64,000 nt of DNA from an uncultured Alphaproteobacteria bacterium (GTDB lineage Bacteria; Pseudomonadota; Alphaproteobacteria; HIMB59; GCA-002718135). Shown piece by piece: positions 45,147-64,000 of the stretch. The notes beneath the pieces were generated by a model, which was not told the origin of the DNA, ran no database searches, and worked only from the letters and a program-made list of their open reading frames with translations. The stretch lies in the NCBI GenBank assembly GCA_902577425.1, contig CACGZD010000001.1:177860-241859 (forward strand), written 5' to 3'. Positions within the stretch are counted from its first letter, which is position 1. The number at the start of each line of letters is the position of its first letter. Made by a program: the position numbers and the translations under genes.

Positions 45147-46088
45147 TTATTTTCCTTGTTGATTTAATTCCATCGAGTAAAGATTTGACGAGCAAGTTAC
45201 ATAAAGAATATTATTATTTTCTCCTCCAAAAGTCAGATTGGCTACAAGATCAGGTAATAATAATTGTCCAATTACTTCACCTTGAGGATTAAAACATTTT
45301 ATTCCCTTGCCTGCACTAGTCCAGACATTATCATCTTTATCAACTCTAAAACCATCCGCAAAAAAGGGATTAAATTTGTGAAAAACTTTCCCATTCTTTA
45401 AAATTCTATTTTCAATAACATCGTAAACCATTATTTGATTTGGAGCGTTCACATCATGTGATCCTCCACTATCTGCTATATAAATTTTATCCTCATTAAC
45501 TGAAAAAGCTAATCCATTAGGTTTTAAAAAATCTTTGGAAACAACTTCTAAATTATTTTCTTTTGGATCATATCTAAATACATAACAAGCTCCATACTCC
45601 ATATCACCTTTATATCCTTCATAATCAGATAAAATACCATATGGTGGATCGGTAAACCAAATGCTTCCATCAGATTTTACAACAACATCATTTGGAGAGT
45701 TTAATTTCTTATCTAAATATTTGTCTACTAATGTAGTTGTATTACCATTTATATCTGTTTTGTATATACATCGACCGCCGTGAGAACATGAAATAAGATT
45801 ACCTTCCAAATCTTCAGTATTGCCATTAATAAAATTTGACGGGTCTTTTTCAATCTTTACACTACTACCATCCCAAGAAAGTAAATGATTATTAGGAATA
45901 TCACTAAAATATAACTTTTTATGACTCTTAATATAGCATGGACCTTCGGCCCATTTCATTCCTGAATGAATTTTTGTAAATTCTTTTGTTGTTAAATATT
46001 TTTCAAATTGAGGTTGATTTTCAATTTTCTCCATAGGAGTGTTTTTAAGATTTTCAATTATATCTGCAACAGTGATTTCGCTATTCAT
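45147..46088 (-). CDS. SMP-30/gluconolactonase family sugar lactonase
   Basis: The 313-residue six-bladed propeller has the family's metal and substrate motifs: WAEGPCYIKSHKKLYFSDIPNN (metal Glu in EGP), LNSPNDVVVKSDGSIWFTDPPYG (Asn), KPNGLAFSVNEDKIYIADSG (Asn) and FADGFRVDKDDNVW (Asp). It hydrolyses an aldonolactone to the free acid, the step between the sugar 1-dehydrogenases and dehydratases found elsewhere in the window. There is no signal peptide, so it is cytoplasmic. It lies 10 bp downstream of the aldA gene on the same strand. Confidence 0.9.
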   Translation of the reverse strand: MNSEITVADIIENLKNTPMEKIENQPQFEKYLTTKEFTKIHSGMKWAEGPCYIKSHKKLYFSDIPNNHLLSWDGSSVKIEKDPSNFINGNTEDLEGNLISCSHGGRCIYKTDINGNTTTLVDKYLDKKLNSPNDVVVKSDGSIWFTDPPYGILSDYEGYKGDMEYGACYVFRYDPKENNLEVVSKDFLKPNGLAFSVNEDKIYIADSGGSHDVNAPNQIMVYDVIENRILKNGKVFHKFNPFFADGFRVDKDDNVWTSAGKGIKCFNPQGEVIGQLLLPDLVANLTFGGENNNILYVTCSSNLYSMELNQQGK

Positions 46089-46098
46089 ATATTTTATA

Positions 46099-47541
46099 TT
46101 ACGCTCTCATATATACTGCGTGTGTTTGCATGTATTCATAAAGTCCATGCTTACCATCAGCACCGCCAATACCTGATTTTCTTAATCCTGCATGAAAAGA
46201 TTGGAAGATTTCCATGTTATCTCTGTTGATCATAGTTTCTCCAAACCGTATTTCATTACAAGCTTTTAAAGCTGTTTTTAAATTATTAGTAAAAATAGAA
46301 GAAGTAAGACCATAATCAGAATCATTTGCATATTCAATCGCTTGGTCTAAATCTTCAAATTCAACTAAAGGTAAAACTGGACCAAAAATTTCTTCTTGTA
46401 TAATTCTCATATCTTGTTTGCAATTAGCTATAACAGTAGGATGATAATAAATTCCTTCAGATGATTCATCTCTGTTTCCACCAGTTAAGATTTCTGCTCC
46501 AGAACCTTTTGCTGAATTCACTAATTCACTTACTTTCTTGGAGCCATCTTCATTGATTAAAGGCCCATAATCTATATCAGTTTTTGTATTAGGATTTCCA
46601 AACTTAGTGTTTTGCATTGCTTTAGTTAATTTTTCTGTAAATTCATCTGCAATTTTTTTATCTACATATACTCTTTCAACACAATTGCATACTTGACCAC
46701 TATTGATAACTCTTGCATCACGAATTTTAGAAACAGCTAAATCAATATCTGCATCAGCTAAAACAAGTGCTGGAGCTTTTCCTCCCAACTCTAGGTTCAC
46801 TTTAGTAATATTTTTAGCAGCTTCAGTCATAATTGCTGAACCTGTTTCTACGCTTCCAGTAAAGCTAATCATGTCAACTTTTTTACTAGAACTTAGTAAT
46901 TTACCAACTGTTTGACCTCTTCCATAAACAAAATTAACTACTCCCTTAGGCACTCCTGCTTCATCTAAGAGCTTAGAAAACATATAAGCGTTATTAGATG
47001 TTTCTTCACTAGCCTTTATAACAATTGTATTACCTGTGACTAAAGCTGGCGCTAGCTTTCTAACAATCAAAAAAAATGGAAAATTCCATGGCAAAATACC
47101 CGAAACTACTCCCATTGGAATTTTAAAAATAAAAATATTTTCGTCAGGAGAGTCACTAGTAACAATTTCTCCTTCAATTCTTCTAGCCCATTCAGCGGTA
47201 TAATCTAAATAATTTGCAGCTCCTTGAACCTCACCTTTTGCCAAATCTTTTATTTTTCCTTGTTCTTCAACAATTATTCTTACAAATTCATCTTCATTTC
47301 TTCTAATACCTTCTGCTATTTTTTTTAAATAAGAAGCCCTTTCTATAGCTGGAATTTTAGACCATTTAGATTGAGATTTTTTTGCTACATCAATTGCATT
47401 TTCTACATCCTCTATGGAAGTTTCTTTAAAAGAATTAATGATACTTAAGTCAGAAGGATTTATATTTTTGATCTCTTCAGTATTTGTAGAAACAGAAAAA
47501 CTTCCATTTATATAATTTTGAATATTATAATTATCACTCAT
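46099..47541 (-). CDS. aldA: Lactaldehyde/glycolaldehyde dehydrogenase AldA
   Basis: The 480-residue enzyme matches E. coli AldA in length and long stretches: PAIERASYLKKIAEGIRRNEDE, EWARRIEGEI, GILPWNFPFFLIVRKLAPAL, VNLELGGKAPALVLADADIDLAV, the catalytic Cys region INSGQVCNC and the tail GFHAGLRKSGIGGADGKHGLYEY. AldA oxidises L-lactaldehyde, glycolaldehyde and related short aldehydes with NAD. In this island it can use glycolaldehyde from pentose cleavage or lactaldehyde from 6-deoxy sugars. It is followed 10 bp later by the lactonase gene. Confidence 0.93.
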   Translation of the reverse strand: MSDNYNIQNYINGSFSVSTNTEEIKNINPSDLSIINSFKETSIEDVENAIDVAKKSQSKWSKIPAIERASYLKKIAEGIRRNEDEFVRIIVEEQGKIKDLAKGEVQGAANYLDYTAEWARRIEGEIVTSDSPDENIFIFKIPMGVVSGILPWNFPFFLIVRKLAPALVTGNTIVIKASEETSNNAYMFSKLLDEAGVPKGVVNFVYGRGQTVGKLLSSSKKVDMISFTGSVETGSAIMTEAAKNITKVNLELGGKAPALVLADADIDLAVSKIRDARVINSGQVCNCVERVYVDKKIADEFTEKLTKAMQNTKFGNPNTKTDIDYGPLINEDGSKKVSELVNSAKGSGAEILTGGNRDESSEGIYYHPTVIANCKQDMRIIQEEIFGPVLPLVEFEDLDQAIEYANDSDYGLTSSIFTNNLKTALKACNEIRFGETMINRDNMEIFQSFHAGLRKSGIGGADGKHGLYEYMQTHAVYMRA

Positions 47542-47659: not shown

Positions 47660-48490
47660 TTATGACAACAGTTTTTTATGAAATTTTATATGATCTTTAA
47701 TATACGTAGATATAAAATAATAACCATGACCATGTTCTTTATGTTTTCTTAATAATATTTTTTGATTATTTTTCTTACATACTTTAATAAAATCATCCAA
47801 ATATAAATCTTTTATAAATTCATCACTTAATCCTTGATCAATTAATATCTTATTACTTATTTTATTTTTTTTAAATAGTTCAACAGGATTATATAAATTC
47901 CATTTATTATTTTTTTTGCCTAAATATTTAGTAAATGCATTGTAAGAAAATGCACTTTTGGAAGGATCACAAATAGGAGCAAAAGCAGAAATGGATTTAA
48001 AAATTTTCTTATTTAAAACACCACAAACTAAAGATCCCATTCCTCCCATTGAATGTCCCATTATCCCCTGATTTTTTAAATTTACATTAAAGTTTTTATT
48101 AACTATTTTTGGAAGTTCTTTGGTAATATAATCATACATATTATAATTTCTTTTCCATTTGGGTTGCGTAGCATTTAGATAAAAACCAGCGCCCTTGCCT
48201 AAAAAACTTTCTTTCAAATCCGGAACTTGATTTCCCCTTGGGCTAGTATCTGGTCCTACAATAATCATTTCTTCTTTAGATGCGTATTTTTGCATTCCAG
48301 ATTTTTGAATAAAATTTTGTTCTGTACATGTTAAGCCACTTAAAAAATATAATACAGGAAGTTTTTTATTGGTATTTGGCAAGTAGATAGAAAAACGCAT
48401 TTCACATTTATTTGATTTTGAATAGTGGGAATATACATATTGAAATCCATTAAAATTTTTGTTCTTTTCAATTAATGTAAGATTGCTCAT
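47660..48490 (-). CDS. fghA: S-formylglutathione hydrolase
   Basis: The 276-residue esterase-D-like alpha/beta hydrolase has SGLTCTEQNFIQKSGMQKYA, PDTSPRG and the nucleophile motif GHSMGGMGS. The triad Asp lies near DQGLSDEF and the His near EHGHGYYF. It hydrolyses S-formylglutathione to formate in formaldehyde detoxification. It follows the frmA-type gene by 11 bp, so the two form an operon. Confidence 0.94.
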   Translation of the reverse strand: MSNLTLIEKNKNFNGFQYVYSHYSKSNKCEMRFSIYLPNTNKKLPVLYFLSGLTCTEQNFIQKSGMQKYASKEEMIIVGPDTSPRGNQVPDLKESFLGKGAGFYLNATQPKWKRNYNMYDYITKELPKIVNKNFNVNLKNQGIMGHSMGGMGSLVCGVLNKKIFKSISAFAPICDPSKSAFSYNAFTKYLGKKNNKWNLYNPVELFKKNKISNKILIDQGLSDEFIKDLYLDDFIKVCKKNNQKILLRKHKEHGHGYYFISTYIKDHIKFHKKLLS

Positions 48491-48501
48491 AAATTTTTGT
48501 T

Positions 48502-49614
48502 TTAAAAATTTATAACAGTACGTATAGATTTTCCTTCATGCATCAAATCAAACGCTTTATTGATATCTTCTAAAGGAAATTCATGAGTAATAAGATCATC
48601 TATATTAATTTTCTTATCCATATACCAATCAACTATTCCAGGAACATCTGTTCTTCCTTTTGCTCCACCAAAAGCTGTTCCTTTCCAGACTCTTCCTGTA
48701 ACTAACTGAAATGGTCTTGTTGATATTTCTTCACCAGAAGCAGCAACGCCAATAATGATAGATTGTCCCCAACCTTTATGACAACATTCTAGAGCTTGTC
48801 TCATTACTTTTACATTACCAATGCACTCAAAACTATAATCTGCTCCACCTTCAGTTATCTCTATAATTTTTTCAATTAAATTTGCATCTCCAACTTCTCT
48901 AGGATTCAAAAAATGGGTCATACCAAATTTTTTACCTAAAGCTTCTCTATTGGAATTAATATCAATACCCAATATAGTTTTAGCTTTAGCTATTTTGCAT
49001 CCTTGAATGACATTAAGTCCAATACCTCCTAAGCCAAAAATTACAGCGGTAGATCCTTCTTCCATTTTTGCAGTATTTAAAACAGCACCAATACCTGTTG
49101 TGACTCCACAACCAATGTAACAAATTTTATTTGGAGGAGCGTCATTTCTTACTTTGGCCAATGCTATTTCTGGGACAACCGTGTAATTTGAAAAAGTTGA
49201 TGTTCCCATATAATGATAAATTGTCTGATTTTTAAAACTAAACCTAGAAGTACCATCAGGCATTAAACCCTTACCTTGTGTTTCTCTAATAGCCTGACAT
49301 AAGTTTGTTTTTCCAGATAAACAAAATTTACACTTTCTACACTCAGGAGTATAGAGTGGAATAACAGTATCATCTTTTTTTATTGAATTTACATTTTTAC
49401 CAGTTTCAACTACCACTCCAGCACCTTCGTGACCTAAAATAGAAGGAAAAATTCCCTCAGGATCTTTTCCAGATAATGTGTAGGCATCAGTATGACAAAC
49501 CCCTGTTGAATTTATTTTTATTAGAACCTCTCCTTCTTTAGGTCCTTCTAAATCAACTAATTCAATCTCCAGAGGTTTTCCTGGTTCAAATGCTACAGCT
49601 GCCCTTGTTTTCAT
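48502..49614 (-). CDS. frmA: S-(hydroxymethyl)glutathione dehydrogenase / class III alcohol dehydrogenase
   Basis: The 370-residue zinc MDR is the glutathione-dependent formaldehyde dehydrogenase. Catalytic zinc Cys in [12 protein letters not shown], His in GHEGAGVV, and the structural zinc cysteines in [15 protein letters not shown] are all present, as is [13 protein letters not shown] (NAD site). [14 protein letters not shown] is the typical N-terminus. Together with fghA it turns formaldehyde into formate. The formaldehyde source in a sugar island is unclear; methylated sugars or osmolytes are possible. Confidence 0.95.
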
Positions 49615-53471: not shown

Positions 53472-54470
53472 ATGAAATCTTTAGATCAAAAAATAAAAAA
53501 AATAAGAGAAGGCACATATAATCCAAAAGATTTTATAATTGCTGATGCAAAAGATGCAGATATGGCCATGGGAAGAAGAGCTCCTGGAATTATAAGAGAT
53601 GAAAGTGGAAAATTAACTGGAAATTTTGACTCTTTTCAAACATATCTTGATAAAATGGAAAGCCTTACTGAATCAAAGCTTGTAGATGTAATGTTAATGT
53701 CTTTAACCAGTGCGGAGAGGCTAGTAGCAAAAAATATTTTTTCTAATAGTCCAGTAACACCAGCAGTAAGATTGAATGATACTTCTTGCATTTGGGGTAA
53801 TATTAGAAATGGAGAATATGCAAAAGAGAAATCCCGTCCTTTTGCAACAACTCAATTAAGACATGCGATTAATATTGTTGATCTAGGTTTATATTCTATG
53901 ACTTTTAACAAGGATGTAGATTTAGATGTTAAAATGTTACAAACTTACAGGACTTTTAGAGATGAAGCTGATCAAATAGGTATGCGTCATTTTTTAGAAG
54001 TTTTTAATTCAGCTGTAATAAATTTAACAACTACAGAAATGGGTGAGTATGTTAATGATTGCATATTAAAAACCTTATCTGGTCAAATTTCTAAAGAAAA
54101 ACCATTATTTTTGAAAATTGCTTATAATGGAGCTAAAGCTATGGAAGAATTAGCTTCTTATGATCCTGGCAACTTAATAATTGGAATACTTGGAGGAGGA
54201 CAAGGCACAACACGTGATTGTTTTGAATTAGTAAATCAAGCGCAAAAATACGGTGCAAGAGTTGCACTTTTTGGTAGAAAAATAAACTTGTGTGAGGATC
54301 AAAACCTTATAGTTGCTTGTATGCGAAAAGTTGTTGAAGGAGACTGCACTCCTAAAGATGGAGTTAAATTTTTTCATGATGAGCTAAAAAAAATGAATCT
54401 TTCATCTGATAGAACATTAGAAGATGATTTAAAATTAACTGAAGAAATTTTGATTTCAGAAGTTGGTTAA
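53472..54470 (+). CDS. TIM-barrel aldolase-like protein of unknown function
   Basis: I do not recognise a named family for this 332-residue cytoplasmic protein. It resembles class I/DeoC-LacD-type TIM barrels at its C-terminal half: KPLFLKIAYNGAKAMEEL (a candidate Schiff-base Lys), then LIIGILGGGQGTTRDCFELVNQAQKYGARVALFGRKINLCEDQ, which looks like a phosphate-binding glycine loop and final strands. The N-terminal half has KDFIIADAKDADMAMGRRAPG and LRHAINIVDLGLYSM. It follows the AcoC-like E2 gene by 25 bp and precedes a sugar-dehydrogenase-like SDR gene by 12 bp. Confidence 0.72.
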   Translation: MKSLDQKIKKIREGTYNPKDFIIADAKDADMAMGRRAPGIIRDESGKLTGNFDSFQTYLDKMESLTESKLVDVMLMSLTSAERLVAKNIFSNSPVTPAVRLNDTSCIWGNIRNGEYAKEKSRPFATTQLRHAINIVDLGLYSMTFNKDVDLDVKMLQTYRTFRDEADQIGMRHFLEVFNSAVINLTTTEMGEYVNDCILKTLSGQISKEKPLFLKIAYNGAKAMEELASYDPGNLIIGILGGGQGTTRDCFELVNQAQKYGARVALFGRKINLCEDQNLIVACMRKVVEGDCTPKDGVKFFHDELKKMNLSSDRTLEDDLKLTEEILISEVG

Positions 54471-58401: not shown

Positions 58402-59775
58402 ATGAAAAGCGATATATTGCAAAAAGAACTTTTAAATATTCTTGGAGATAGATTTTCTGTATCTGATTCCGTAAGAACAAATTACTCTCATGGTGAAGAT
58501 ATATTTGATCCAGTACTTCCACAAGCTGTAGTTTTTCCCAATAACAACGAAGAAATTTCTAAAATTCTCAAATTATGTAATGATAATAAAATTCCTATAA
58601 CTCCATTTGGAACAGGAACTTCTTTAGAAGGTCACGCCTTAGGTAATAAAGATGGAATAACAATTTCTTTAGAAAATATGAATAAAATTTTAAAGATTAA
58701 TGAAGAAGACTTTGATTGTAGAGTGCAAGCATATGTTACAAGAAAACAACTAAATGAAGAACTAAAAGATAAGGGGCTTTTTTTTCCAATTGATCCAGGT
58801 GCTGATGCATCTCTAGGAGGAATGGCATCTACCTCAGCATCAGGAACTATGGCTGTTAGATATGGAACAATGAAAACAGTTGTTTCAGGACTTACTGTTG
58901 TGCTGCCGAATGGAGAAATTATGAATACAGGGGTTCGAACAAAAAAAACTTCAGCTGGCTATAATCTTACAAATTTATTTATTGGTTCAGAAGGAACTTT
59001 AGGAATTATTAGTGAGGTGCATTTACGTTTATCTCCAATACCAGAAGATATAATGAGTGCTGTTTGTCATTTTCCTGATTTAGAGTCTACAATATTAGCA
59101 GCACAAGAAATAATTCAATACGGTATACCTGTAGCTAGAATTGAAATGCTAAATAAAGATCAAATGGAAATATGCATTAATTATTCTAATTTACAAAATA
59201 TGGAAAAAAAACCTACTTTGTTTTTTGAATTTCATGGAAGTGAAACTTCCAATAAAGAATCAATTGATATTGCACAAGAAATTTCAAAAAATAATAATGG
59301 TACTGAATTTAAATGGGCTCAAAGCACTGATGAAAGAAATAAAATTTGGCAAGCCCGTCATGATGCCTATTATGCAGTTAAATCTCAAGGCAATAATATT
59401 AGAGTTTATACCACCGATGTATGTGTGCCTATATCTAATCTAGTCGAATGTATTAAATTTGCTGAAGAAGAAATTAGTAATTATGGATTAAAGGCACCAA
59501 TGGTTGGCCATGTAGGAGATGGAAACTTTCATGCAGCAATAATTTATGATCCAAAGAAAAAAGAAGATTATAAAATGATCAGAGATTTTAGTGATAAATT
59601 AGTAGAAAAAGCGTTATCGTTAGAAGGCACAGTTACAGGAGAACATGGTGTAGGCGTTCAAAAGAAAGATTATTTATTAAAAGAACATCCTGATAATATT
59701 CATTTAATGAAATCTATTAAAAAAACAATAGATCCAAATAATATTATGAATCCAGGAAAGATTTTTGATTTATAA
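58402..59775 (+). CDS. FAD-linked 2-hydroxyacid dehydrogenase (GlcD/D-lactate dehydrogenase family)
   Basis: The 457-residue flavoprotein has the FAD PCMH domain: PFGTGTSLEGHALG, the PIDPGADASLGGMASTSASGTMAVRYGTMK segment and TSAGYNLTNLFIGSEGTLGIISEV. The C-terminal oxidase domain ends with GHVGDGNFHA and GTVTGEHGVGVQKKDYL. These fit D-lactate dehydrogenase (cytochrome) and glycolate oxidase GlcD. It passes electrons from D-lactate, glycolate or another 2-hydroxyacid to the respiratory chain. No GlcE/GlcF partners are adjacent, which favours the D-lactate or stand-alone type. Confidence 0.92.
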   Translation: MKSDILQKELLNILGDRFSVSDSVRTNYSHGEDIFDPVLPQAVVFPNNNEEISKILKLCNDNKIPITPFGTGTSLEGHALGNKDGITISLENMNKILKINEEDFDCRVQAYVTRKQLNEELKDKGLFFPIDPGADASLGGMASTSASGTMAVRYGTMKTVVSGLTVVLPNGEIMNTGVRTKKTSAGYNLTNLFIGSEGTLGIISEVHLRLSPIPEDIMSAVCHFPDLESTILAAQEIIQYGIPVARIEMLNKDQMEICINYSNLQNMEKKPTLFFEFHGSETSNKESIDIAQEISKNNNGTEFKWAQSTDERNKIWQARHDAYYAVKSQGNNIRVYTTDVCVPISNLVECIKFAEEEISNYGLKAPMVGHVGDGNFHAAIIYDPKKKEDYKMIRDFSDKLVEKALSLEGTVTGEHGVGVQKKDYLLKEHPDNIHLMKSIKKTIDPNNIMNPGKIFDL

Positions 59776-59782
59776 TTTTATA

Positions 59783-60658
59783 TTATTTATTTTTCAAAAA
59801 TTTTTTAAAATTTTCTAGATGTTTTTTTTCAATTTTTATTGAATGTTTATTCGAAGGAAATTTATTGTTAATAACATCACTTTTATATTCTTTAAAGGCT
59901 TTAACTCTCTCTTTTTGCATTTTTTCTAAAATACGATTTTTTTCTTTTTCCATTTTTTGAATAATTGAGTGAAAATTTCTATATTGTTTTGCATGTTTAG
60001 GTAAAGCAATTGTTCCACAACCTAAAATATCTTCAGCAAACAAAAATTGAACGTCACTCTTGTTTCCAGAACCAATTGAAATTGTAACTAAAGAAGTGTT
60101 TTTTGTTATTTCTCCCATAAGATCTGAAGGTATACATTCAACCTCAACCCCCCAAGCACCAGTATTTTCAATATCTTTTATATCATTAAATAATTTTATA
60201 GCTTCATTTGTTGTTTTACCATACGCTTTCATACCTCCAATCCAAGTTGATTTTCTTGGAACTAATCCGGCATGTCCTTGAAAAGGTATTCTAAAACCAT
60301 TTAAATATTTCATAAAATCTAGATTCCATGATCCACAAGTTATTGAATCCATTCCTAAATCAATAATTTCAAGTGAATCTCTTACTATATCTTCTTTAGA
60401 TGAATATTTTATAAAAGGAACTGACACTGTCATAAAAGTTTTTGGTGCGGCTTTTCTAATTTCTTTTAACTCAGGACAAACTCTAATTAATAAAATGTCA
60501 ATATCAGCTTCTTCTGCTGCTCTAGCCTCCTCTGGAGTAGCAACATGTATTTGCGTTAATTTTTTTTTTCCTTTTAAATCTATTAAATCTCTAACAGTAT
60601 AATTTCTATATCCAGGTTCTTGACTAATAGAATAAACTTTTTTATATTTTTTTTTCAT
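59783..60658 (-). CDS. PanB-fold paralog with non-canonical active site
   Basis: The 291-residue protein is related to ketopantoate hydroxymethyltransferase. GHAGLVPRKSTWIGGMKAYGKT matches the PanB GHLGLTP...GGYKVQGR segment, and VEVECIPSDLM with SIGSGN matches the PanB LECVP...GIGAGN segment (the Glu at E181 of E. coli is kept). But the two Mg-ligand aspartates of PanB align with non-acidic residues: LVGDSLG becomes LIRVCPEL and LADLPF becomes TVSVPF. The KIEGG Glu aligns with CGSW. So it is probably not PanB. A basic, Lys-rich C-terminal tail adds about 45 residues. It is last in the sugar-acid dehydratase operon (15-bp gap). Confidence 0.82.
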   Translation of the reverse strand: MKKKYKKVYSISQEPGYRNYTVRDLIDLKGKKKLTQIHVATPEEARAAEEADIDILLIRVCPELKEIRKAAPKTFMTVSVPFIKYSSKEDIVRDSLEIIDLGMDSITCGSWNLDFMKYLNGFRIPFQGHAGLVPRKSTWIGGMKAYGKTTNEAIKLFNDIKDIENTGAWGVEVECIPSDLMGEITKNTSLVTISIGSGNKSDVQFLFAEDILGCGTIALPKHAKQYRNFHSIIQKMEKEKNRILEKMQKERVKAFKEYKSDVINNKFPSNKHSIKIEKKHLENFKKFLKNK

Positions 60659-60673
60659 TTATAAAAAACTTAA

Positions 60674-61414
60674 TTAATAAGTCGCTCTTCCTCCACTTAA
60701 ATCAAAAACTCCTGCAGTAGTATAAGAATTTTCATCTGAAGACATCCAAGCTACTAGTGATGCAAGTTCTTCAACTTTTACAAATCTATTTCGAGGTATT
60801 TTAGAAAGCATATAATCAATATGTTCTTGACTTATTTGATCAAATATTCTTGTTTTAGCTGCTGCAGGGGTTACACAATTTATGGCAATATTTTTATCTG
60901 CTAATTCTTTGCCAAGTGATTTTGTAAGAGCAATTACTCCTGCCTTTGCTGCACTATATGGCATAGCATTAGGATTTCCTTCTTTTCCAGCAATCGAAGC
61001 TATATTAACAATTTTTCCATAATTCTTCTCAATCATGTGCGGAACAACTGATTTGCAACAGTAAAATACTCCACTTAAATCAATATCTATTACTTTTTGC
61101 CATTCATCTATAGGATATTCCCATGTTTTAAAACTTGGACCTGCAATACCTGCATTATTAACTAATATATCTATAGAATTATGAATTTTAAGAGATTGTT
61201 CCGTTGCTTTAGTAACGCTATCAAAATTTGTTACATCTACTTCTACCGTATGAACATTATCTCCTAGATTTAAAGAGCTCATCATTTCTTTATCCTTATC
61301 CCAGATAATAACTTTAGCATCAGAAGCTAAAAATTTTTCAACTATAGCAAGGCCAAACCCCTGTGCTCCTCCTGTAACAACCGCTACTTTATCTTTTAAA
61401 TCTATTTTATTCAT
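60674..61414 (-). CDS. SDR dehydrogenase of the sugar-acid operon (FabG-like)
   Basis: The 246-residue SDR has TGGAQGFGLAIVEKF, NNAGIAG, Ser in VNIASIAG and YSAAKAG. The C-terminus DLSGGRATY is typical of SDRs found in L-fucose and arabinonate operons rather than of fatty-acid FabG. In known pathways such an enzyme oxidises 2-keto-3-deoxy-fuconate or pentonate at C4. It lies 14 bp downstream of the IlvD-type dehydratase and 15 bp upstream of the PanB paralog. An AGGAG ribosome site precedes it. The exact substrate is an inference from neighbours. Confidence 0.87.
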   Translation of the reverse strand: MNKIDLKDKVAVVTGGAQGFGLAIVEKFLASDAKVIIWDKDKEMMSSLNLGDNVHTVEVDVTNFDSVTKATEQSLKIHNSIDILVNNAGIAGPSFKTWEYPIDEWQKVIDIDLSGVFYCCKSVVPHMIEKNYGKIVNIASIAGKEGNPNAMPYSAAKAGVIALTKSLGKELADKNIAINCVTPAAAKTRIFDQISQEHIDYMLSKIPRNRFVKVEELASLVAWMSSDENSYTTAGVFDLSGGRATY

Positions 61415-61428
61415 AAAATCTCCTATCT

Positions 61429-63168
61429 TTAATGACTATGCCTTTTAACTACCGATCCTCTTCTGCCAACTAAAAAATCTAAATCTGCACCTTTGTCAGC
61501 TTGCATAACATGATCAACATATAATTTTTGATAACCTCCAGTAACCTCAGGTAAAACTGGATTATATTCTTTTAATCGCTTTTCAATAGTTTCACTACTT
61601 ACTAATAGTTCCATTTTTCCATTTTTAACATCAACACTAATTTCATCACCGTTTTGAACTGCTGCTAATGGACCTTTTACTGCTGCTTCAGGAGCAGTAT
61701 GTAATATTACTGTTCCAAATGCTGTGCCGCTCATTCTTGCATCCGAAATACGGATCATATCTCTTACGCCTTTTTTGAGAACTTTTTGAGGTAAAATCAT
61801 ATTTCCTACCTCAGCCATTCCAGGATATCCTTTTGGACCACAGTTTTTTAAAACCAATATGCAATTTTCATCAACATCTAAATTTGGATCATGAATCTTA
61901 GTATGAAATTCCTCTACACTTTCAAACACAACAGCGCGTCCCGTGTGTTGCATTAAATGAGGAGAGGCTGCAGAGGGTTTTAGTATCGCTCCGTTTGGAG
62001 CAATATTTCCTCTTAAAATTTTAATACCTCCATCCTTAGTCAAAGGATCTTCATAAGTTTTAATAACATCATCATTCCAACATTTTGCATCAATATTATT
62101 TTCATTAATTGTTTTTCCATTAACCGTTAAAGCATCTTTACTTAATAAACCTTTTTCAAGAAGACGTTTTATTACAACTGGAACTCCTCCTGCATAATAA
62201 AAATCTTCCATTAAATATTTTCCTGAAGGTTGAAGATTCACCATAGTTGGAATTTCTTTTCCACATTTCTCCCAATCATCTAAACTTAAATCTATTTCCA
62301 TTCTTCCAGCAATAGCAGCTAAATGAATAACAGCATTAGTAGATCCTCCTATGGCACCATTTACTTTTATAGCATTTTCAAAAGATTTTTTTGTTACTAT
62401 TTTAGACATAACTAAATTTTCTTTCACCATTTCAACTATTCGTTTTCCACTCATGTAAGCAAGCGCATATCTTCGAGCATCAACTGCAGGGATAGCAGCA
62501 TTGCCAGGTAAAGACATTCCTAAAGATTCTACCATGCTGCCCATCGTTGAGGCAGTTCCCATAGTCATACAGTTTCCTTTTGAGCGACTCATAGAAATTT
62601 CTGCTTCTACGAAATCTTCTTCTGTTATAACTCCAGCATTAAGATCAGCATCTAACTTCCAAACTCCAGTTCCAGAACCAAGAATTTCTCCTCGATGATG
62701 ACCATTTAACATTGGTCCACCAGAAACACCTATTGTTGGAAGATCAACGCTTGCTGCGCCCATTAATAAAGAAGGTGTTGTTTTATCACATCCCATTAGT
62801 AGAACTACTCCATCCATAGGATTACCTCTAATCGCCTCTTCCACATCCATACTTGCTAAATTTCGAAATAACATTGCTGTTGGTCTTAAGTTTGATTCAC
62901 TTGCAGAAAACACAGGAAACTCCAATGGAAAACCACCTGCTTCATATACTCCGCGTCTTACAGATTCAGCAATTTCTCTAAAATGTCCATTACACGGTGT
63001 AAGTTCAGACCAAGTATTACAAATTCCTATGACAGGTCTGCCATCAAATAAATGGTTTGGATGACCTTGATTGCGCATCCAGCCTCTATGCACAAAAGTA
63101 TCTCTTCTATGAGATTTAGAATTATACCAATCACTTGATCTATATTTTTTATCTTTATCTTTTGCCAT
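61429..63168 (-). CDS. IlvD/EDD-family sugar-acid dehydratase (L-arabinonate dehydratase-like)
   Basis: The 579-residue Fe-S dehydratase has cluster cysteines in CNTWSELTPCNGHF and GCDKTTPSLLMG, and C-terminal SDARMSGTAFGTVILHTAPEAA with the catalytic Ser/Lys region. HRGWMRNQGHPNHLFDGRPVIGICNTWSELTPCN and RGVYEAGGFPLEFPV are the pattern of pentonate dehydratases (L-arabinonate, D-xylonate or L-fuconate), not of IlvD proper. It yields 2-keto-3-deoxy-pentonate. The next upstream gene is a DapA-family enzyme that would act on this product. Confidence 0.93.
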   Translation of the reverse strand: MAKDKDKKYRSSDWYNSKSHRRDTFVHRGWMRNQGHPNHLFDGRPVIGICNTWSELTPCNGHFREIAESVRRGVYEAGGFPLEFPVFSASESNLRPTAMLFRNLASMDVEEAIRGNPMDGVVLLMGCDKTTPSLLMGAASVDLPTIGVSGGPMLNGHHRGEILGSGTGVWKLDADLNAGVITEEDFVEAEISMSRSKGNCMTMGTASTMGSMVESLGMSLPGNAAIPAVDARRYALAYMSGKRIVEMVKENLVMSKIVTKKSFENAIKVNGAIGGSTNAVIHLAAIAGRMEIDLSLDDWEKCGKEIPTMVNLQPSGKYLMEDFYYAGGVPVVIKRLLEKGLLSKDALTVNGKTINENNIDAKCWNDDVIKTYEDPLTKDGGIKILRGNIAPNGAILKPSAASPHLMQHTGRAVVFESVEEFHTKIHDPNLDVDENCILVLKNCGPKGYPGMAEVGNMILPQKVLKKGVRDMIRISDARMSGTAFGTVILHTAPEAAVKGPLAAVQNGDEISVDVKNGKMELLVSSETIEKRLKEYNPVLPEVTGGYQKLYVDHVMQADKGADLDFLVGRRGSVVKRHSH

Positions 63169-64000
63169 TTAAAATTTACCTAATTTTTTTGCTATTTGTT
63201 TTGATTTTATCTTACCATATTGTGTAGGTTTTAAAAAAGGTTTTCTGTCATAAATATTTTTCATTCCCATTCTATAACCACAAATTCTCTTACCATAGGT
63301 TATTAAAGTATCTATAGACTGCATAACAAAAATTATATCAGGTGCTATTTGAGTATATTGCCTATTTGCTTTCTTAATTTCTTTATTTTTAATTAATTTA
63401 TAAATTTTTATAAATTTGTCAGCCATCTCCAAAGCCGGAACAATGCCTTTACAACCAACTTGAAAATTATCGATAATTTCTTGTCCTCCTCTGCCATTAA
63501 ACATTCGTATATCTTTAGAAAGTTGCTTAATTTCTTCTTTAATAAAAACTGATGATGATTCGTTTTTAATAACTCTAAAGTTCGGAAAGGAATTAGAAAG
63601 TTTTTTTATTTTATTTACCGACAACCCAACACCTAGATACTCTTTTGCATTTTGAATTCCAACGATTGTATCATTAGCAATAGGTATTAATTTTCTAAAG
63701 AATTTATAACAATCTTCATCTGTTGTATTTTTTTTTATTAGTGGTTGTAAAATAATCCAGTCAGCTTTATTTTTTTTTGCTACATCAATTAATTTTATAT
63801 ATTCGTTTAAAGAGTTTCCATAAATCGTATACGCTTTTGGTAAATTGGGCTCCCAATTTTCTGAGACAATTTCAATTATTTTAGTTTTTTCTTTTAGAGA
63901 AAGTTTGTTTACTTCTGTAGCCAAACCAAGAGATGCTATTCCCTGCGCACCTATAGATTGGATTATTTTAATTTCTTCAATTATAGCCTTAGTATCAAGA
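63169..64000 (-). CDS. DapA-family keto-deoxy-pentonate dehydratase/aldolase (partial, start outside window)
   Basis: The frame stays open through position 64000, so a TTG at 63924 is not the start. Visible are 277 residues beginning within the N-terminal barrel (IKIIQSIGAQGIASLGLATEVNKLSLKEK, the DapA family GTTGE-like region reading GLATE). The Schiff-base Lys is in RVIKNESS and the late GCKGIVPALEMADKF follows. The usual catalytic Tyr motif YNVPGRT is replaced by GIQNAKEYLGVGL, seen from memory in 2-keto-3-deoxy-L-arabonate dehydratases. It abuts the arabinonate-type dehydratase gene (0-bp gap), so the pair probably makes 2-oxoglutarate semialdehyde. Confidence 0.85.
   Translation of the reverse strand, partial: LDTKAIIEEIKIIQSIGAQGIASLGLATEVNKLSLKEKTKIIEIVSENWEPNLPKAYTIYGNSLNEYIKLIDVAKKNKADWIILQPLIKKNTTDEDCYKFFRKLIPIANDTIVGIQNAKEYLGVGLSVNKIKKLSNSFPNFRVIKNESSSVFIKEEIKQLSKDIRMFNGRGGQEIIDNFQVGCKGIVPALEMADKFIKIYKLIKNKEIKKANRQYTQIAPDIIFVMQSIDTLITYGKRICGYRMGMKNIYDRKPFLKPTQYGKIKSKQIAKKLGKF

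Follow-up and report, generated by a model that had tools for sequence, protein, structure and literature searches.

PanB* proteins, as we call PanB paralogs that lack the metal ligands, make up a large and overlooked family that adjoins methyl-removing oxygenases and probably loads formaldehyde onto folate. One of them is encoded at 59783..60658 on the minus strand of the 64,000-nucleotide stretch of DNA analyzed here (the window). On balance, we favor the view that PanB* moves the oxidized methyl group of O-methylated sugars or cyclitols, as formaldehyde or a hemiacetal, onto tetrahydrofolate (THF), which would give methylene-THF for FolD and PurU. The family, the lost ligands, the retained residues, the clade, and the gene linkage are observations, whereas the use of folate, the substrate, the direction, and the mechanism are predictions.

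The window gene had originally been predicted, from its GHAGL, VECIP, and GSGN motifs, to encode a PanB paralog with a damaged metal site, and both parts of this description held. Its 291-aa product contains all three motifs and matches Pfam PF02548 at 127.9 bits (cut-off, 28.7); this was the sole Pfam match, and we found no homology of the protein to Fae. It misses the panB equivalog TIGR00222 (97.5–102.9 bits; cut-off, 207.55). We take Asp45, Asp84, and Glu114 of Escherichia coli PanB to be its Mg2+ ligands and Lys112 to be its keto-acid (substrate) lysine. In phmmer and two MAFFT alignments, the window protein has V/C, S, and T/G at the three ligand positions, with an acidic residue at none of them, and Lys112 is likewise replaced, so the loss extends beyond the two aspartates and one glutamate first reported. 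His136 and Glu181 are kept, as H129 and E174, and E172 aligns to E179 of the E. coli numbering. An AF2 model gave a confident TIM barrel (pLDDT 87.5, pTM 0.86), and its best PDB matches were all PanB (TM about 0.8 by target). Against two relatives, the gene showed a dN/dS of ~0.15–0.24, which indicates purifying selection. Together with many conserved orthologs and the invariant H136/E181, this value rules out a pseudogene or a decaying gene.

Across 254 distinct PanB-family sequences, drawn from about 800 genomes and public contigs, H136 and E181 were invariant (254/254), and the ligand set was missing from 219, which make up the PanB* group. PanB* sequences were gathered by similarity alone, and their neighborhoods were scored afterwards. 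In a 91-sequence tree, PanB* and true PanB separated into one clade each (100/100 and 100/99, respectively). Within the same genomes the scores left a clear gap, with PanB* at 69–113 bits and true PanB at 229–326 bits. PanB* has four nearly invariant additions: W146, R228, H229, and E179, the last of which shares a strand with E181 and precedes it by two residues. Neither E179 nor H229 is found at these positions in true PanB. The residues common to both groups sit on barrel strands 5 to 8. In PanB, the metal and the keto acid are carried by strands 2 to 4; PanB* has these strands rebuilt, and its loop linking strands 2 and 3 is shorter than in PanB. Hosts are Rhizobiaceae, Rhodobacterales, HIMB59-type marine bacteria, and a few other phyla. 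The usual database label of these proteins is PanB, with panB given in rhizobial and rhodobacterial plasmid records. We found no paper on the clade in open-access full text; an earlier description elsewhere is possible. A Rosetta stone search of long PanB* open reading frames returned no fusions to an oxygenase or a folate enzyme. We also observed a second type of PanB paralog (L145–L154, L175–L177; recognized by residue pattern in 10 sequences, of which two represent it in the tree), which keeps D45, S46, and K112, has D84 changed to Cys or Ser and E114 to Gln, and has E179 in common with PanB*. Its neighbors include PhyH with an FAD/GcvT-domain demethylase-like protein (L176) and, at L175, an MttB methyltransferase, which is once more a one-carbon setting.

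The window genome (G000; 1.52 Mb) encodes one true PanB, which has every ligand, and six PanB* that lack the set, seven PanB-family proteins in all. The separate panB that the original prediction had suggested looking for lies at G000:C1:415343-416131 (265 bits, over the cut-off), which makes a ketopantoate-forming role for PanB* unnecessary. Such a role in pantothenate synthesis is ruled out by the scores, the ligands, the clade, and the complete lack of linkage to panC, which lay within 3 kb of 15 of 22 true panB genes versus 0 of 182 PanB* loci. All six PanB* genes fall inside C1:237-327 kb. The genome also encodes FolD and formate-THF ligase (FTHFS), with no PurU over the cut-off, and 14 membrane di-iron enzymes (seven FA_desaturase and seven FA_hydroxylase). 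All seven FA_desaturases of this streamlined 1.5-Mb genome are clustered at G000:C1:281000-308300, near PanB* genes.

PanB* genes were commonly found next to oxygenases. An oxygenase lay within 3 kb of 127 of 182 PanB* loci, compared with 1 of 22 true panB loci, with the caveat that the loci are not phylogenetically independent. For di-iron enzymes the counts were 115/182 versus 0/22, and for the MocE ferredoxin 99/182 versus 0/22. The oxygenase counts are probably underestimates, because gene calls at high-GC loci came from tblastn with a reference set that failed to pick up divergent PhyH genes. Most of the oxygenases were Moc-type di-iron enzymes with a MocE ferredoxin, and the others were Rieske, PhyH, or TauD proteins, so that several unrelated types are represented (FA_desaturase, FA_hydroxylase, Rieske/VanA-like, PhyH, and TauD). 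What they could have in common is hydroxylation of a methyl group with release of formaldehyde.

The linkage holds in Rhizobiaceae, Rhodobacterales, HIMB59 relatives, Bradyrhizobium, and one Myxococcota bin, and many loci add inositol genes. Rhizobium johnstonii 3841 and Sinorhizobium meliloti pSymB carry FA_desaturase-MocE-FdR-PanB* with a divergent LacI; Gemmobacter has FA_hydroxylase-ABC-MocE-TIM barrel-PanB*-iolG; and Aestuarium and Marivivens have FA_desaturase-MocE-PanB* followed by a rhizopine-binding ABC system and iolG-iolC-iolD. In the window gene's own clade, partners include PhyH dioxygenases and a di-iron desaturase, and one genome (G008) has two PanB* genes divergent from two PhyH genes. 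The Myxococcota-assigned bin has IlvD-SDR-FA_desaturase-PanB* on one strand (L069:5942-10825), the same toolbox as in the window operon. At some PanB* loci (a marine GH4 group, Acidimicrobiia, and several alphaproteobacteria) there was no recognized oxygenase within 6 kb. In the marine group (L079 and related loci), a gene for a GH4-family glycosidase is followed directly by PanB*, with a sugar ABC importer and, once, PhyH. On Acidimicrobiia-type contigs (L074, L071, L083, and L121), PanB* follows an alkyl-sulfatase-like metallo-beta-lactamase rather than an oxygenase, a context that is outside what the demethylation model yet explains.

The window gene is the last of a seven-gene minus-strand operon, FA_hydroxylase-PanB*-PanB*-DapA-like-IlvD/Edd-SDR-PanB*, whose genes are 0 to 97 bp apart. 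The FA_hydroxylase (332 aa; L008:7727-8725) is a membrane di-iron oxygenase encoded 9 bp upstream of a PanB* gene. The DapA-family aldolase/dehydratase gene (63169..64000, minus strand; PF00701, 50.7 bits) starts beyond the end of the window and is complete at L008:5028-5948 (306 aa). Next come an IlvD/Edd-family sugar-acid dehydratase resembling L-arabinonate dehydratase (61429..63168, minus strand; 910.8 bits to NF004784 and 839.2 to NF009559, under that family's cut-off of 882) and an SDR-family dehydrogenase (60674..61414, minus strand; PF00106/PF13561) 15 bp upstream of the window PanB*, an arrangement that agrees with the original description. The MocE ferredoxin and its reductase are absent from the operon; elsewhere in the genome, they occur at locus L010, with a MocE-family match just under the cut-off (TIGR02377, 134.1 versus 136.15). 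A sugar ABC importer is divergent to the operon, and the best match of its binding protein is the rhizopine-binding family, at 80 bits and well under the cut-off. On the other side, a GlcD-like FAD-linked oxidase gene (58402..59775, plus strand) is convergent with the window PanB*, and the same oxidase adjoins the orthologous PanB* in a relative (L206 in G006).

Further off, 47660..49614 (minus strand) encodes an S-formylglutathione hydrolase (TIGR02821, 331 bits; cut-off, 282) and a glutathione-dependent formaldehyde dehydrogenase (TIGR02818, 632 bits; cut-off, 544). The formaldehyde-oxidation role proposed for these genes is thus borne out, and the proposed link between PanB* and formaldehyde is likely, but these genes, the closest frmA/fghA to PanB*, sit 10 kb off and are a separate formaldehyde detoxification system outside the PanB* operon. 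An SMP-30/gluconolactonase-type protein and an aldehyde dehydrogenase (45147..47541, minus strand) may catalyze sugar-acid steps upstream or downstream. A 332-aa open reading frame at 53472-54470, lying between pyruvate-dehydrogenase-like genes and an SDR gene, had no Pfam or NCBIfam match.

Folate genes accompany PanB* in a minority of loci. We found purU in 12 PanB* clusters, with folD in six of these, in several independent arrangements. In Rhizobium and Ensifer, the cassette runs on as PanB*-purU(-folD), giving operons of the form FAdes-MocE-FdR-PanB*-purU-folD, and other cassettes hold folD-purU in the divergent half. Neotabrizicola has MocE-TIM-FdR-PanB*-folD-purU-iolG, G175 has PanB*-Gfo/Idh-iolG-purU-iolC, and purU adjoins PanB* in G955 and G1073. 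A nicotine demethylation operon, mabO-folD-purU, drains demethylation-derived methylene-THF to formate (PMC6214936), and the PanB*-purU/folD linkage mirrors it, which provides a precedent for folate-coupled demethylation. By genome, purU was present in 9 of 25 PanB* genomes, as a single copy, and lay within 10 kb of PanB* in four of the nine, a count biased by four genomes chosen with prior knowledge of purU near PanB*, although the neighborhoods themselves were fetched blind to context. Neither folD nor purU was found beside PanB* in the window gene's own clade.

We propose that PanB* is a neofunctionalized PanB that would carry out the one-carbon half-reaction minus the keto acid. PanB transfers a hydroxymethyl group between methylene-THF and a keto acid held by Mg2+, and the metal both holds and enolizes 2-ketoisovalerate. 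In the proposed route, an oxygenase (of the MocD/FA_hydroxylase type with MocE and a reductase, or a PhyH, TauD, or Rieske enzyme) would act on a methylated sugar or cyclitol taken up by the cell, hydroxylating its O-methyl group to give R-O-CH2OH, which can fall apart to R-OH and formaldehyde. His136, Glu181, and the new Glu179 of PanB* would move the CH2OH or CH2O unit to THF, and the resulting 5,10-methylene-THF would pass to formyl-THF through FolD and then to formate and free THF through PurU or formate-THF ligase working in reverse. With an alkoxide or water as the leaving group in place of an enolate, the reaction would not call for Mg2+. A donor such as R-O-CH2OH or formaldehyde needs no stabilized enolate, and the metal and keto-acid site could therefore go while the His and Glu that handle the one-carbon unit stay. 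Ligand loss with retention of this pair is what we observed.

Given its SDR, sugar-acid dehydratase, and DapA-like protein, the window operon probably handles a sugar or sugar acid that carries an O-methyl group, and the demethylated product would enter this SDR/IlvD-Edd/DapA route. In rhizobia and rhodobacteria, the gene content of the operons suggests O-methyl inositols. In Rhizobium mesoamericanum, mocDEF homologs are upregulated with Mimosa exudate, the richest component of which is pinitol (PMC5789663). As a more tentative variant, which we regard as possible but rather doubtful, PanB* proteins may be substrate-specific transferases that pass R-O-CH2OH straight to THF with no free formaldehyde, each paralog serving one methylated sugar or cyclitol. 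We raise this variant because the presence of several paralogs in so small a genome suggests that they are substrate-specific; six in 1.5 Mb seem excessive for plain formaldehyde capture, and specific action fits better.

Other roles can be imagined for PanB*. It might merely aid the breakdown of R-O-CH2OH, or support the oxygenase as a scaffold or chaperone, with free formaldehyde going to frmA/fghA and folate unused. The close pairing of PanB* with oxygenases, the frmA/fghA genes in the window, and the window genome's lack of a PurU over the cut-off all agree with this, but we consider it unlikely, since linkage to purU/folD recurs in several arrangements and PanB* derives from a folate-using enzyme whose catalytic pair it retains. 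A new metal site (e.g., Glu179/Glu181/His136/His229) supporting metal-dependent chemistry on another substrate would account for E179 and H229 being nearly invariant in PanB* and absent there in PanB. Those four positions all differ from the PanB metal site, however, and among the roles considered here we give this one the least credence.

The original suggestion was that the window protein might cleave or condense a keto-deoxy acid. An enzyme that works without the usual metal, as an aldolase or lyase on a keto-deoxy acid or some other sugar acid, would suit the sugar-acid dehydratase and SDR of the window operon and the similar IlvD-SDR-FAdes-PanB* run at L069. Nevertheless, most relatives occur with oxidative O-demethylation, inositol catabolism, and folate one-carbon enzymes and with no keto-deoxy acid; most PanB* operons carry inositol genes, not a sugar-acid dehydratase. 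The window operon also already has a DapA-family protein for aldolase/dehydratase chemistry, and the Mg site with which the superfamily binds keto acids is lost, so we judge this role quite improbable. We hold the same low opinion of a carbon-carbon hydroxymethyltransferase that would place the one-carbon unit of methylene-THF onto a sugar or cyclitol ketone, in the biosynthetic direction of PanB. Its PanB ancestry and the neighboring Gfo/Idh dehydrogenases, which could produce a ketone, are in keeping with such an enzyme, but the operons look catabolic (ABC uptake, iolG/C/D, and LacI regulators), and PurU drains formyl-THF rather than supplying methylene-THF. The transfer of a demethylation-derived one-carbon unit to THF remains the role that we prefer for PanB*.

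If this role is correct, many database entries now labeled panB would be put right, the use of O-methylated cyclitols and sugars by rhizobia and abundant marine bacteria would be explained, and efforts to engineer formaldehyde assimilation would gain PanB* as a part. The direct-transfer variant, if true, would represent a new enzyme activity and widespread folate-coupled oxidative O-demethylation in the oceans and in legume symbionts. The condensation of formaldehyde with THF is spontaneous but too slow in vivo for much flux, and no THF-using formaldehyde-activating enzyme is known, with PanB having been considered a possible promiscuous catalyst (PMC7073904). PanB* would be the first strong candidate for this missing enzyme.

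PanB* resembles parts of several known systems. It shares with PanB (PF02548, TIGR00222) the TIM-barrel fold, His136, Glu181, and probably the one-carbon carrier; unlike PanB, it lacks the Mg ligands and the keto-acid lysine, scores far under the panB cut-off, forms a separate clade, has a shortened strand 2–3 loop and the new E179, W146, R228, and H229, and is never adjacent to panC. As in rhizopine catabolism (mocCABRDEF), loci of PanB* relatives carry a MocD-like desaturase, a MocE ferredoxin, a reductase, and inositol genes, and the importer beside the window operon has its below-cut-off match to the rhizopine-binding family (80 bits). The moc units listed in PMC10107442 are mocDEF, mocR, mocBA, and mocC, with PanB not among them, whereas here PanB* is a regular partner and PhyH, Rieske, or TauD proteins replace the di-iron enzymes in some loci. 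The mabO-folD-purU operon of Paenarthrobacter pAO1 (PMC6214936) similarly unites oxidative demethylation with folD and purU and drains methylene-THF, but its flavoenzyme itself forms the methylene-THF, a step for which we propose the separate PanB*. Finally, the proposed role resembles that of Fae, which acts with tetrahydromethanopterin, in that formaldehyde would be condensed enzymatically with a pterin carrier; PanB* belongs to an unrelated protein family, and its proposed carrier is THF.
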